Source of the DNA: Lysobacter sp. HDW10
GTDB taxonomy: Bacteria > Pseudomonadota > Gammaproteobacteria > Xanthomonadales > Xanthomonadaceae
Length of the DNA stretch: 64,000 nt
Reading direction: 5' to 3'
Assembly (NCBI RefSeq): GCF_011300685.1
Contig: NZ_CP049864.1
Span: 62,001 to 126,000, forward strand
Shown here: positions 37,004 through 40,733 of the stretch, piece by piece
Position numbering within the stretch: position 1 is the stretch's first letter
Layout of the letters: every line of letters starts with the position of its first letter
The notes under the pieces: model-generated
Database searches by the model: none
What the model saw: only the letters and a program-made list of their open reading frames with translations
Told to the model about the DNA's origin: nothing
Position numbers and translations under genes: made by a program

Positions 37004-38485
37004 TTAGGCCACGCGTGCGTCCGACGGATCGGGTTGCAACACCGGGTTCAGTACCGGTTTCGTCGCGGCGAAGGTCTTCCAAACGTTGTAGGCCATCAGC
37101 AGCATGCCTGCGACCACCAGCAAACCGCCGGCTGCGCGGACAAAGTAATACGGGTACGTGGCATTCAAGGCTTCGGCAAAGCTGTAGGTCAAGGTGCCGT
37201 CGGCTTTCGTTTGACGCCACATGAAACCTTGCATGATGCCTGCGATCCACATCGAAGCGATGTACAGCAACACGCCGATCGTGTGCACCCAGAAGTGCGT
37301 ATCGATGAGCTTCACCGAATGCATTTCTTTCTTGCCGACCAATTTCGGAATCAAGGCATAGATCGAACCGATCGAAATCATTGCGACCCAACCCAAGGCA
37401 CCTGCGTGAACGTGGCCCACGGTCCAATCGGTGTAGTGCGACAACGAGTTCACCGTCTTGATCGACATCATCGGGCCTTCGAAGGTCGCGATCATGTAGA
37501 AGCTGATGGCCACGATCAGGAATTTCAAAATCGGATCTGTGCGCAATTTATGCCACACGCCGGAGAGGGTCAGAATGCCGTTCATTGCGCCGCCCCAGCT
37601 CGGTGCGAGCAAGATCAGCGAGAACACCATGCCAACGGACTGCGCCCAATCTGGCAACGCGGTGTAGTGCAAATGGTGCGGGCCTGCCCACATGTACACA
37701 GCGATCAATGCCCAGAAGTGGACGATCGACAGGCGGTAAGAATAGATCGGCCGACCGGCTTGTTTCGGCACGTAGTAGTACATCATGCCGAGGAAGCCTG
37801 CCGTCAGCAGGAAGCCGACTGCGTTATGGCCGTACCACCATTGCGCCATGGCGTCGACGGCACCGGCGTACGCGGAGTACGACTTCATGCCGCCAGCCGG
37901 CATGGAAATGTTGTTCACGATATGCAGCAATGCGATGGCCAGGATGTAGCCACCGAAGAACCAGTTCGCCACGTAAATATGGTTCACGCGACGCTTGGCG
38001 ATGGTGCCGAAGAACAGCACGGCGTACGCCACCCAAACAATGGCAATGGCGATATCGATCGGCCATTCGAGCTCTGCGTATTCCTTACCTTGCGTATAAC
38101 CCAATGGCAAAGAAATCGCGGCTGCAACGATGATCGCTTGCCAGCCCCAGAACACAAAGGCCGCAAGCTTGTCTGAAATTACGCGCGTATGACACGTGCG
38201 CTGAACCACATCGAGACTGGTCGCGAACAACGCACACCCACCAAACGCAAAAATCACCGCATTGGTGTGCAAGGGACGCAGTCGACCATACGATAACCAC
38301 GGAATCCCCTCGCCCAAGGTCGGCCAGTACAGCTGGGCGGCGATAAACAGGCCGACGGTCATACCGACGATGCCCCAAATCACAGTGGCTATGGCGAATT
38401 GTTTGACGACTTTGTCGTTGTAATAGCCCAGTGGCGCAGCGTTTTTTGTCGCTGCCACGGGTGCTTCAGCGGATGCATTTGTCAT
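37004..38485 (-). CDS. ccoN: cbb3-type cytochrome c oxidase subunit CcoN (FixN)
   Basis: CcoN is the catalytic haem-copper subunit of the high-affinity terminal oxidase. The 493-residue protein contains about twelve transmembrane helices. Haem and CuB ligating histidines are in motifs such as [29 protein letters not shown] and [17 protein letters not shown], and [16 protein letters not shown] is diagnostic. It is the first gene of the cco cluster; a perfect FNR/Anr palindrome is centred about 70 bases upstream of its ATG. No strong Shine-Dalgarno is visible. Confidence 0.97.
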
Positions 38486-38547
38486 TGCGTATCTCGATCC
38501 GGCGCAGTATCTATCGCATGATACTGCCCCATTTATAAAAAAGCTTC

Positions 38548-38561
38548 TTGATCTGTATCAA
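38548..38561 (-). promoter_or_regulatory. FNR/Anr-type binding site upstream of ccoN
   Basis: The sequence matches the consensus TTGAT-N4-ATCAA perfectly. A TATCAT hexamer on the minus strand (38518-38523) lies at nearly the spacing of a class II FNR promoter (24 bases after the site, where 22 is ideal). The site is 5 bases past the hemN stop codon, so the ccoN promoter begins right at the end of hemN. Confidence 0.85.
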
Positions 38562-38565
38562 TTAA

Positions 38566-39966
38566 TCAAAGTGAACGTGAATGCGTTGGCTTTTCAAGCG
38601 TCACGTTTTTGCTCAAATACCGGTCAAAACACATCGCAATGTTGCGCAGGAAAAAGCGGCCTTTGAGCGTGACGTGGATGCCACTTTCATCACGATGCAA
38701 GAGGCCATCCGCTTCAAACGCGGCCATTTGCGCGATTTCTTCGGCGAAATAGCGCTGTCCATCGATGTTGTGTCGCTTGGAGAGCGCATCAAGCGACACT
38801 TCGCCTTGACACATCAAGTTTTGAATCAAATCTGCACGAAGCTCATCGTCTTTGTCCAAGTTCATGCCTCGGAAGACGGGCAAACGATCTTCGTCGAGTG
38901 CGAGCTCCCAATCATTGAGATCACGCGGGTTTTGGCTGAAGGTTCCGCCGATCTTGCTAATCGCGCTGACACCAAAGCCAATGAGGTCTGTATTGGCGTG
39001 CGTCGTGTAGCCCATGAAATTTCGGTGCAAAGTCCCCGCTTCTCTTGCCTTCGCAAGGCTATCGCCGGGTAAAGCGAAGTGATCCATGCCGATGTAGACG
39101 TAGCCCGCGGCCGTCAAGGTTTCGATCGCACACCGCAACAGTTCCAATCGTGTGTGCGCCGTCGGTAGCAAGCTTGCATCCAGTTGTTTTTGCGGCTTGA
39201 ACAAGTGCGGCATATGCGCATAGCCGTACACAGCCAAACGATCGGGGCGAATCGCCAAGACTTCATCCAAAGTCTTGCGAAAACTTTCGACCGTTTGATT
39301 GGGCAGTCCGTAGATCAAATCCAGGTTCACGGACTCAAATCCGGAGGCGCGGCACGCATCGACAATGGCGCGCGTTTCTTCAATGGATTGCACGCGATTC
39401 ACCGCTTCTTGCACGGCCAAATCAAAATCCTGGACACCTAAGCTCGCGCGATTGAATCCAGCCTTGGCCAGCTTGAAGATGTCGTCCGGTTTGACGAATC
39501 GCGGATCCAGCTCGATTGAAATATCGCGGTCAGATGCGTTCGAGAAGTTGAACTGGTTGCGAAGCAAAGCCACCACTTCGTTCAATTGTTCGGGTGTCAA
39601 GAAATTGGGCGTGCCGCCACCGAAGTGCAGCTGCACCACTTCCCTGTCTTGATCGAAATGTTCCGCCAACAGCGCAAACTCTCGATAGAGTCGTTTGAGG
39701 TAGAGATCGGCCTTGGACTTGTCGCGCGTGATGATGCGATTGCAGCCGCAGTAGAAGCACGGTGATTCGCAGAATGGCACGTGGACGTAAAGCGATAGCT
39801 TTCGCGGAATCGGTTCGTCGTTGGATTGCGCGATAGCCGCGTAGAGTTCGGTCTGACCGAATGCATCCGTGAATCTTGGCGCCGTCGGATACGAGGTATA
39901 ACGCGGACCGGCCGTGTCATAGCGACGGAGCAATTCGGGATCAAAGCGTATTGGCGTGTCTTCCAT
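38566..39966 (-). CDS. hemN: Oxygen-independent coproporphyrinogen III oxidase HemN
   Basis: HemN is a radical SAM enzyme that decarboxylates coproporphyrinogen III to protoporphyrinogen IX without oxygen, feeding haem synthesis when air is scarce. The 466-residue product has the N-terminal GPRYTSYPTAPRF and the radical SAM cluster CESPCFYCGCN (CxxxCxxC), then LHFGGGTPNFL. The end of the start context carries no Shine-Dalgarno. A perfect FNR palindrome lies upstream at exactly the class II distance if transcription begins at the ATG. The gene precedes ccoN, matching haem supply with oxidase synthesis. Confidence 0.96.
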   Translation of the reverse strand: MEDTPIRFDPELLRRYDTAGPRYTSYPTAPRFTDAFGQTELYAAIAQSNDEPIPRKLSLYVHVPFCESPCFYCGCNRIITRDKSKADLYLKRLYREFALLAEHFDQDREVVQLHFGGGTPNFLTPEQLNEVVALLRNQFNFSNASDRDISIELDPRFVKPDDIFKLAKAGFNRASLGVQDFDLAVQEAVNRVQSIEETRAIVDACRASGFESVNLDLIYGLPNQTVESFRKTLDEVLAIRPDRLAVYGYAHMPHLFKPQKQLDASLLPTAHTRLELLRCAIETLTAAGYVYIGMDHFALPGDSLAKAREAGTLHRNFMGYTTHANTDLIGFGVSAISKIGGTFSQNPRDLNDWELALDEDRLPVFRGMNLDKDDELRADLIQNLMCQGEVSLDALSKRHNIDGQRYFAEEIAQMAAFEADGLLHRDESGIHVTLKGRFFLRNIAMCFDRYLSKNVTLEKPTHSRSL

Positions 39967-39970
39967 GCGA

Positions 39971-39987
39971 GCAGACTACGTGTCTGC
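39971..39987 (-). promoter_or_regulatory. Inverted repeat over the predicted hemN -10 region
   Basis: Arms GCAGAC and GTCTGC separated by five bases form a perfect dyad immediately upstream of hemN. It overlaps the hexamer expected to be the -10 element (TAGTCT, 39973-39978), so it could be an operator. It may also be chance. Confidence 0.35.
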
Positions 39988-40000
39988 GCTGGGAACCGCC

Positions 40001-40014
40001 TTGATTCAAATCAA
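40001..40014 (-). promoter_or_regulatory. FNR/Anr-type binding site upstream of hemN
   Basis: TTGATTCAAATCAA (plus strand) is a perfect FNR/Anr palindrome. On the minus strand 22 bases separate it from TAGTCT, the exact class II spacing, which predicts initiation at the A of the hemN ATG (39966). Confidence 0.85.
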
Positions 40015-40029
40015 TAATGGGTCTGAAGG

Positions 40030-40048
40030 CCACTTCCGAAGGAAGTGG
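40030..40048 (-). other. Hairpin at the 3' end of tRNA-Val
   Basis: Arms CCACTTCC and GGAAGTGG with a 3-base loop form a perfect 8-base stem in the transcript. The first three bases of one arm are the tRNA CCA end. No T-run follows, so this looks like a processing or weak termination structure rather than a standard terminator. Confidence 0.5.
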
Positions 40049-40120
40049 TGGGCGGTACAGGGTTCGAACCTGTGACCCCTACCATGTCAAGGTAGTGCTC
40101 TACCGCTGAGCTAACCGCCC
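40046..40120 (-). tRNA. tRNA-Val(GAC)
   Basis: A 75-base cloverleaf including encoded CCA. The acceptor stem pairs GGGCGGT with ACCGCCC; the D-arm is GCTC/GAGC; the anticodon stem CTACC/GGTAG encloses the loop TTGACAT with anticodon GAC; the T-arm ACAGG-TTCGAAC-CTGT is canonical. It is followed by a short hairpin whose 5' arm includes the CCA end. Confidence 0.96.
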
Positions 40121-40132
40121 GTGAAGCCGGCA

Positions 40133-40161
40133 AGTATAACGAAGGTTTGCGGTGAGCTCAA
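40133..40161 (-). promoter_or_regulatory. Promoter of tRNA-Val
   Basis: On the minus strand a -35 element TTGAGC (40156-40161) and a -10 element TATACT (40133-40138) are separated by exactly 17 bases. The predicted start lies about 5-6 bases upstream of the mature tRNA 5' end. Confidence 0.75.
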
Positions 40162-40166
40162 GCACG

Positions 40167-40190
40167 CAAAAGCCGCCCCGTGGGGCGGCT
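40167..40190 (-). terminator. Rho-independent terminator of the BON-LysM gene
   Basis: Arms AGCCGCCC and GGGCGGCT with a 4-base loop, followed on the minus strand by TTTTGC. It lies 34 bases after the gene's stop codon and just upstream of the tRNA-Val promoter. Confidence 0.75.
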
Positions 40191-40223
40191 CTGGGCTGTC
40201 GCTGGCGCGAAATCTAAGGAATC

Positions 40224-40733
40224 TTAGTCTTCGGCCGGAATGCGCAGTACCTGACCCGGATAAATCTTGTCCGGGTGCTTCAGCATCGGCTTATTGGCCT
40301 CGAAAATCCGGTTGTACTTATTGGCATCGCCGTACATTTCCTTGGAAATCTTGGACAAGGTATCGCCCTTTTCCACGGTGTAGGTGCGTGAGGTCCAGCC
40401 CTCGCCACCACCACCGCCGGAACCGATGTTTTGAACCGTCTCAACGGAACTCTGGACGTCGCTGAAATCGGCATTGCTCACCGGCACCGTGAGCTGATCA
40501 TCCACCTTATCGATGCCTTGCACATTGCCGGCAATCAGCACGGCCTTTTCCTTGCTCATGATGTCAGTGGCTTGTCCGCTCAGCGTGACCGTCGAGCCGT
40601 CCACTTCGATCTTCATACCTGAATGGTCAATGCCATTGTCGGTCAGTGCGGCTTGCAGCGCGCCTTCGGCTTTGGCTTCACCTGGCTTGAAGATTTTTTC
40701 ACCCGCATCTTTCACGAAATCAATAAAACTCAT
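40224..40733 (-). CDS. lysM: BON and LysM domain protein (Kbp/YgaU-like)
   Basis: A 169-residue protein with an N-terminal BON domain (about residues 20-90, with GSTVTLSGQATDIMSKEKAV) and a C-terminal LysM domain (about 117-165, YTVEKGDTLSKISKEMYGD and IYPGQVLRIP), joined by a glycine-rich linker (GSGGGGGEG). No signal peptide is seen. The same architecture occurs in Escherichia coli Kbp (YgaU), a cytoplasmic potassium-binding protein. ATG 40733 has AAGGA upstream. The gene has its own terminator and appears monocistronic. Confidence 0.9.
   Translation of the reverse strand: MSFIDFVKDAGEKIFKPGEAKAEGALQAALTDNGIDHSGMKIEVDGSTVTLSGQATDIMSKEKAVLIAGNVQGIDKVDDQLTVPVSNADFSDVQSSVETVQNIGSGGGGGEGWTSRTYTVEKGDTLSKISKEMYGDANKYNRIFEANKPMLKHPDKIYPGQVLRIPAED

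Follow-up and report, generated by a model that had tools for sequence, protein, structure and literature searches.

The hemN gene of Lysobacter sp. HDW10 very probably has a class II FNR promoter that runs directly into the coding sequence, such that the A of the AUG would be the first base transcribed and the mRNA would be leaderless. At low oxygen, FNR would bind a palindrome centred at -41.5, RNA polymerase would use TAGTCT as the -10 element, and transcription would begin at the A of the hemN ATG, with a pyrimidine at -1 and a purine at +1, as is favoured at initiators. The message would have no 5′ leader and would be read by ribosomes accepting a 5′-terminal AUG. The layout was found in the window, i.e. 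the whole stretch of 64,000 nucleotides that was analysed (Table 1), and was compared with that of hemN loci in relatives.

Layout of the hemN promoter

The sequence-only reading had placed a perfect FNR palindrome 41.5 nt, measured from its centre, from the A of the hemN ATG, with 22 bases between the site and TAGTCT and 6 more before the ATG at 39966; all of these distances proved exact to the base on the minus strand (site 40014-40001). In class II FNR promoters of the E. coli type, TTGATNNNNATCAA is centred at -41.5, followed by 22 nt to the -10 and with no -35. Relative to its predicted +1, hemN has the palindrome and the -10 at these positions, and it differs from such promoters in that the predicted +1 coincides with the A of the start codon, leaving neither a leader nor a Shine-Dalgarno sequence. 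TAGTCT is identical to TATAAT at only 3 of 6 positions by our own count, and no sigma-70 hexamer pair was found at hemN.

Table 1. Coordinates of features at the hemN-ccoN region (window positions)
Feature	Position	Strand	Remarks
FNR-type palindrome TTGATTTGAATCAA	40001..40014	minus	0 mismatches to TTGATNNNNATCAA; centre 40007.5; class II position
22-nt spacer, FNR site to -10	39979..40000	minus	length conserved, sequence not; initial GGCG often kept
-10 hexamer TAGTCT	39973..39978	minus	TAG is also an in-frame stop
6-nt GCTCGC, -10 to ATG	39967..39972	minus	C at -1 conserved
hemN start codon ATG	39964..39966	minus	predicted transcription start 39966, +/-1, from geometry
hemN, oxygen-independent coproporphyrinogen III oxidase, 466 aa	38566..39966	minus	TIGR00538
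Second perfect FNR palindrome	38548..38561	minus	69.5 nt from ccoN ATG; with a leader, in contrast to adjacent hemN
ccoN, cbb3 oxidase subunit I	37004..38485	minus	directly downstream of hemN; TIGR00780, 732.7 bits
tRNA-Val (GAC)	40046..40120	minus	immediately upstream of hemN, same strand

The product scored 567.9 bits against TIGR00538 (cut-off 324.95), which places it in the HemN family, and several relatives align with it from residue 1, in agreement with the earlier claim that the protein is HemN from the ATG at 39966. TAGTCT supplies an in-frame stop (its TAG), and from there to this ATG no alternative start codon occurs, so the ATG is the earliest possible start and an upstream one is ruled out. 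The absence of a Shine-Dalgarno sequence, also claimed earlier, was borne out by a pairing energy with the anti-Shine-Dalgarno of +0.4 kcal/mol upstream of hemN. Together with the AUG start and a -10 at a fixed short distance in relatives, this gives hemN some of the marks of a leaderless mRNA. A putative FNR-type regulator is encoded in the genome (L209); it has a CX2CX5C motif as judged by eye, and its best NCBIfam family was Fnr (NF008365), at 175.9 bits against a cut-off of 228. A CRP homologue is also encoded (292.6 bits, cut-off 266).

Distance from site to start codon in relatives

Loci for comparison were drawn from five sources: 1) the best 80 of 581 relatives (named records), 2) 30 hemN loci from the window's family, in which 286 of 395 genomes matched, 3) 17 loci, from 17 matching genomes out of 20, of a genus identified as that holding Xanthomonas sp. 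AmX2 because L111 and L035 have common upstream DNA, 4) 60 places taken from the order, in which 184 of 250 genomes matched, and 5) 18 more loci. Including the window there were 206 loci, 203 with the protein motif and 192 with distinct upstream DNA; L140, L175 and L178, which are without the motif, and 11 loci with upstream DNA identical to that of another were left out of the counts. A locus was counted as having the geometry if it had an FNR-like site (3 mismatches at most) and, 40.5-43.5 nt from it, an in-frame start. A set of 126 loci represented Lysobacteraceae and relatives, mainly Rhodanobacteraceae (groups f1, f2 and f12 and the named loci grouped with the order from their titles and rank); f12 was assigned to Rhodanobacteraceae because the upstream DNA of L187 is identical to that of the Luteibacter locus L048.

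The sequence-only reading had proposed a comparison of the spacing in related genomes, and within this clade the spacing was found to be kept rather than variable: 121 of the 126 distinct loci had the geometry, at 42.5 nt in 60, 41.5 nt in 50 (either distance in 110), 40.5 nt in 8 and 43.5 nt in 3, with ATG as start codon in 119 and GTG in 2. By group, it was present in 55/56 loci of the window's family (f1), 3/3 of f2, 17/19 of f12 and 46/48 of the named order loci. Among further families of the order, f3 (3/8) and f11 (4/6) were mixed, and f4, f6, f7, f8 and f9 together had 0/20, the distance being longer there. The other named loci, outside the order grouping, gave 5/32, among which L047 falls inside the clade on the HemN tree, L071 is a plausible separate case, and three are doubtful (L068, a GTG beside other GTGs; L059, with a second ATG at 76.5; L076, which needs 3 mismatches). 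The loci failing the count of 121 were L038, L045, L172, L186 and L190. L172 and L186 carry sites with 4 mismatches at 43.5 and 42.5, respectively, L045 lies outside the clade on the tree, and L190 is a second hemN copy. The genome holding L190 and L191 has one hemN with the leaderless geometry and the other with its site 109.5 nt from the ATG.

Taking the single best site per locus gave a similar picture. Such a site with 0-2 mismatches was present at 120 of the 126 loci, and an in-frame ATG stood at 40.5-43.5 in 114 of these 120, an out-of-frame ATG in none. The six failures were L089 and L197, with GTG at 40.5 and 42.5, respectively, L023 and L026, explained by a second site, and L045 and L190, which are true exceptions. 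It was also noticed that L023 and L026 have tandem FNR-like sites upstream of hemN, the gene-proximal one at 42.5 and 41.5, respectively. ATGs at other distances were few, the largest class being the 7 in-frame and 13 out-of-frame ATGs at 30.5; the further in-frame ATG at 30.5, in 7/120 loci, lies inside the -10 hexamer, which is then often CATGCT or GATGCT. Distances were unchanged in 56 loci thinned to <60% identity. When applied to 16 further loci of the genus that includes Xanthomonas, the geometry pointed in 15 to an ATG lying 20 codons ahead of the conserved motif.

The standard deviation of the site-to-start distance was 0.66 nt, as against 10.4 nt for the distance from the start to the protein motif (range 33 to 81 nt), which argues that the hemN start tracks the promoter and not the protein; the ATG would have stayed with the promoter as the N-terminus grew or shrank. 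Shared ancestry does not account for the fixed distance by inertia, because spacer identity between loci is saturated (0.355 vs 0.349 expected from composition). A GGCG directly after the FNR site (40000-39997 in the window) was found in 48 of the 121 loci, each base being kept in 61-77%.

Conservation extends to the -10 and to the base at -1. With the -10 placed 22 nt after the site, its A (hexamer position 2, position 24 from the site) was kept in 90% and its T (hexamer position 6, position 28) in 89% of the 121 loci, the two being jointly present in 108, and the -10 was 5-8 nt from the start (7 nt in 60 loci, 6 nt in 50). A C at -1 was found in 116/121 clade hemN loci, in 20/43 hemN outgroups and before the ATG in 20/29 ccoN loci (Fisher p about 1e-4 vs hemN, kinship ignored). 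Anti-Shine-Dalgarno pairing of clade hemN averaged -1.55 kcal/mol, weaker than the -3.16 of shuffled sequences, and reached -4.5 or below in 7/121. The first 30 nt of hemN are weakly folded (-1.91 vs -4.5 to -8.9 further in), and their G+C content is also lower (0.63 vs 0.66-0.73). In the hemN outgroups pairing averaged -3.15 vs -2.31 for shuffled sequences, with 12/43 at -4.5 or below; these loci being a weak control for a Shine-Dalgarno, ccoN was taken as the control instead.

The two genes, together with ccoO and ccoP as identified by eye, form one cluster. For ccoN, 40 of 60 family genomes matched, and 30 loci were taken, of which 29 were readable (L232, with a broken frame, was left out); the start was taken as the in-frame ATG nearest the aligned region. 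The site-to-ATG distance was 58.5-78.5 nt in 27/29 loci, 33.5 in one and 146.5 in one, and 0/29 fell at 40-44. Mean pairing was -5.69 kcal/mol, with 21/29 at -4.5 or below. An FNR promoter in the window's family therefore does come with Shine-Dalgarno leaders, and hemN differs. Outside the clade, the f3 hemN loci L135 and L138 have, by eye, GGAG-like stretches before a TTG or GTG 57.5 or 58.5 nt from the site.

For HemN, a tree with 87 rows was built by a quick method with SH-aLRT support only, the f3 and f11 loci being left out as too short. Lysobacteraceae and Rhodanobacteraceae formed a clade with support of 89 (its halves, 99 and 98), and 54/55 rows in it had the geometry; the sole exception, L038, is without an FNR-like site and has a purine-rich GGCAGG before the ATG. 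Five changes in all are needed on the tree, doubtful outliers included. One gain at the base of the clade with rare loss is the simplest reading, and a leaderless hemN is thus probably ancestral to the clade, as judged from the distribution of the predicted geometry. L071, on a contig labelled as a Bordetella parapertussis MAG, has the leaderless geometry (43.5) and groups with Betaproteobacteria; its label or origin is uncertain.

Chance and alternative readings

The perfect FNR palindrome occurs at 4 places in the 2.18-Mb genome, where 0.83 would be expected from the base composition of the window. Two of these precede hemN and ccoN. The other two fall within coding DNA (ftsY and the beginning of dcd, as named by eye), so that the palindrome carries little weight by itself. 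A pattern of site, 33-36 nt and ATG was found at 3 places in the genome: before hemN, within an ORF, and antisense to a stretch spanning two ORFs. Since the FNR-to-ATG geometry recurs across relatives, chance is not an explanation for it at hemN. The perfect sites at 1409465 and 1711635 were rejected as regulon members, both being in the coding DNA whose genes were named by eye, and the match at 540199, which falls inside an ORF, was rejected as a second leaderless FNR gene.

Read-through from tRNA-Val is the main local rival. This same-strand gene (40120-40046) has a promoter-like site at 40161-40133, no terminator-like site was found between it and hemN, and the tRNA was the only Rfam element in 38300-40300, so that a longer message may also exist; co-directional tRNAs were likewise found upstream of hemN in L010 (Met) and L036 (Gly, Cys). 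It is nevertheless very unlikely that hemN is translated mainly from such a message, started near 40133 at the promoter of tRNA-Val or at a different promoter upstream, with the FNR site only modulating. Among 44 chosen loci, a co-directional tRNA-Val was seen only in the close relative L082, those of L088 and L098 being on the other strand, whereas the FNR-to-ATG geometry is clade-wide, and a leadered hemN message would be without a Shine-Dalgarno. An upstream tRNA was also rejected as a conserved part of the hemN locus, most of the 44 loci scanned having none there. A further possibility is that the site binds a repressor or another member of the CRP/FNR family, the CRP homologue being at hand, and that the spacing reflects repression. 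We regard this as most improbable, given that the consensus is of the FNR type, that the -10 follows the site after 22 nt, the arrangement of class II activation, with no sigma-70 hexamer pair at hemN, and that hemN is needed when oxygen is low, as established for the pathway.

Two other readings concern the exact start. Transcription from 1-3 nt upstream of the ATG, giving a very short leader, or from mixed start sites would fit the 63/121 loci with the ATG at 42.5 or 43.5 from the centre, where a +1 held at 41.5 would put 1-2 nt before the ATG, and class II promoters do tolerate small shifts. This is unlikely, however, in that the A and T of the -10 keep their position relative to the site in about 90% of loci, whichever of the two distances applies, the extra base lying between the -10 and the ATG. 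The conserved base before the ATG is C, a poor initiator, so the A is the likelier +1; a leader of 1-3 nt would in any case be near-leaderless in function. That the ATG is misassigned, with translation starting further in and the first codons serving as leader, finds a candidate start in the TTG at codon 12 of the window hemN. It is scarcely credible beside the in-frame ATG held at a fixed distance in 114/120 loci, which stays in frame whether that distance is 41.5 or 42.5, with out-of-frame ATGs missing there. The reading in which a class II FNR start falls at the ATG is supported by the clade-wide spacing, the -10 at the class II position, the C at -1 and the missing Shine-Dalgarno. The claim that a leaderless hemN would be unusual stands against the other proteobacteria sampled and fails within the clade, in which the hemN geometry is the rule.

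Further candidate genes and known systems

A strict search of 60 family genomes, requiring in this order the site, 23 nt, an A, 3 nt, a T, 6-7 nt and an ATG, gave 53 places; the pattern in reverse gave 0. Of the 53, at least 33 were hemN, as identified by coordinates, by translation or as being identical to L022 or L027 among the named loci. Two were nnrS (PF05940), two were sub-threshold matches to PF00282 (pyridoxal decarboxylases), and four, from four genomes, were short ORFs alike by eye with signal-like N-termini (L247, L248, L249, L257), of which the three scanned had no Pfam match. Some of the remaining places are probably chance. For nnrS, 34/60 family genomes matched, and the geometry was present in 15 of 30 loci (L261-L290) as a raw count, with sites of 0-2 mismatches that were often of the CTGA type; the window genome's own nnrS (L272) is without such a site. 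These counts suggest that nnrS may be a second leaderless FNR target. By extension, a small FNR-leaderless regulon of the clade is conceivable, if doubtful, in which hemN, nnrS and perhaps others would have their translation start created by the choice of start site under FNR, and others such as ccoN would keep leaders.

Leaderless mRNAs are known from lambda cI and from mycobacterial and Deinococcus genes. The hemN message resembles them in its predicted 5′-terminal AUG, the lack of a Shine-Dalgarno, the use of ATG in 119/121 loci and the weakly folded 5′ end, and differs from them as an activator-controlled anaerobic gene whose predicted 5′ end is kept across a gammaproteobacterial clade. 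Class II FNR promoters, FNR control of hemN (PMC2908626) and leaderless mRNAs are each already known. The hemN of R. sphaeroides is in the FNR target table of PMC2908626, and nnrS is DNR-regulated (PMC1274295); these are the same genes under regulators of the FNR family, and the portions of both papers that were examined mention neither leaderless messages nor a fixed distance to the ATG. As reported in PMC3469484, the mRNA of Chromobacterium violaceum ohrR, a redox-regulated gene, is leaderless, its transcription start overlapping the start codon, and the authors liken its poor translation to that of X. campestris ohrR; it differs from hemN in being under OhrR rather than FNR and in belonging to another gene and class. 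The FnrS RNA of Neisseria gonorrhoeae has AUG at its 5′ end and a predicted class II FNR site before it, and a translational fusion was reported to be inactive (PMC3032703), so a 5′ AUG is no proof of translation; FnrS, however, is a small RNA, whereas hemN is a full conserved ORF. No record of a leaderless hemN, or of a hemN start codon tied to its promoter throughout a clade, was recognised in the literature searched; the 5′ end of hemN may be included in a transcript map of Xanthomonas (Schmidtke 2012).

The geometry may help to place hemN gene starts. If the FNR-leaderless regulon were true, low oxygen would favour such messages at promoter and ribosome alike. If the leaderless hemN is true, an activator-controlled gene would have its start codon tied to its promoter throughout a large clade, beside a comparable FNR promoter, that of ccoN, with a Shine-Dalgarno leader. 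The two genes would then be a natural pair for asking why a leaderless message is kept and whether low oxygen favours leaderless translation.
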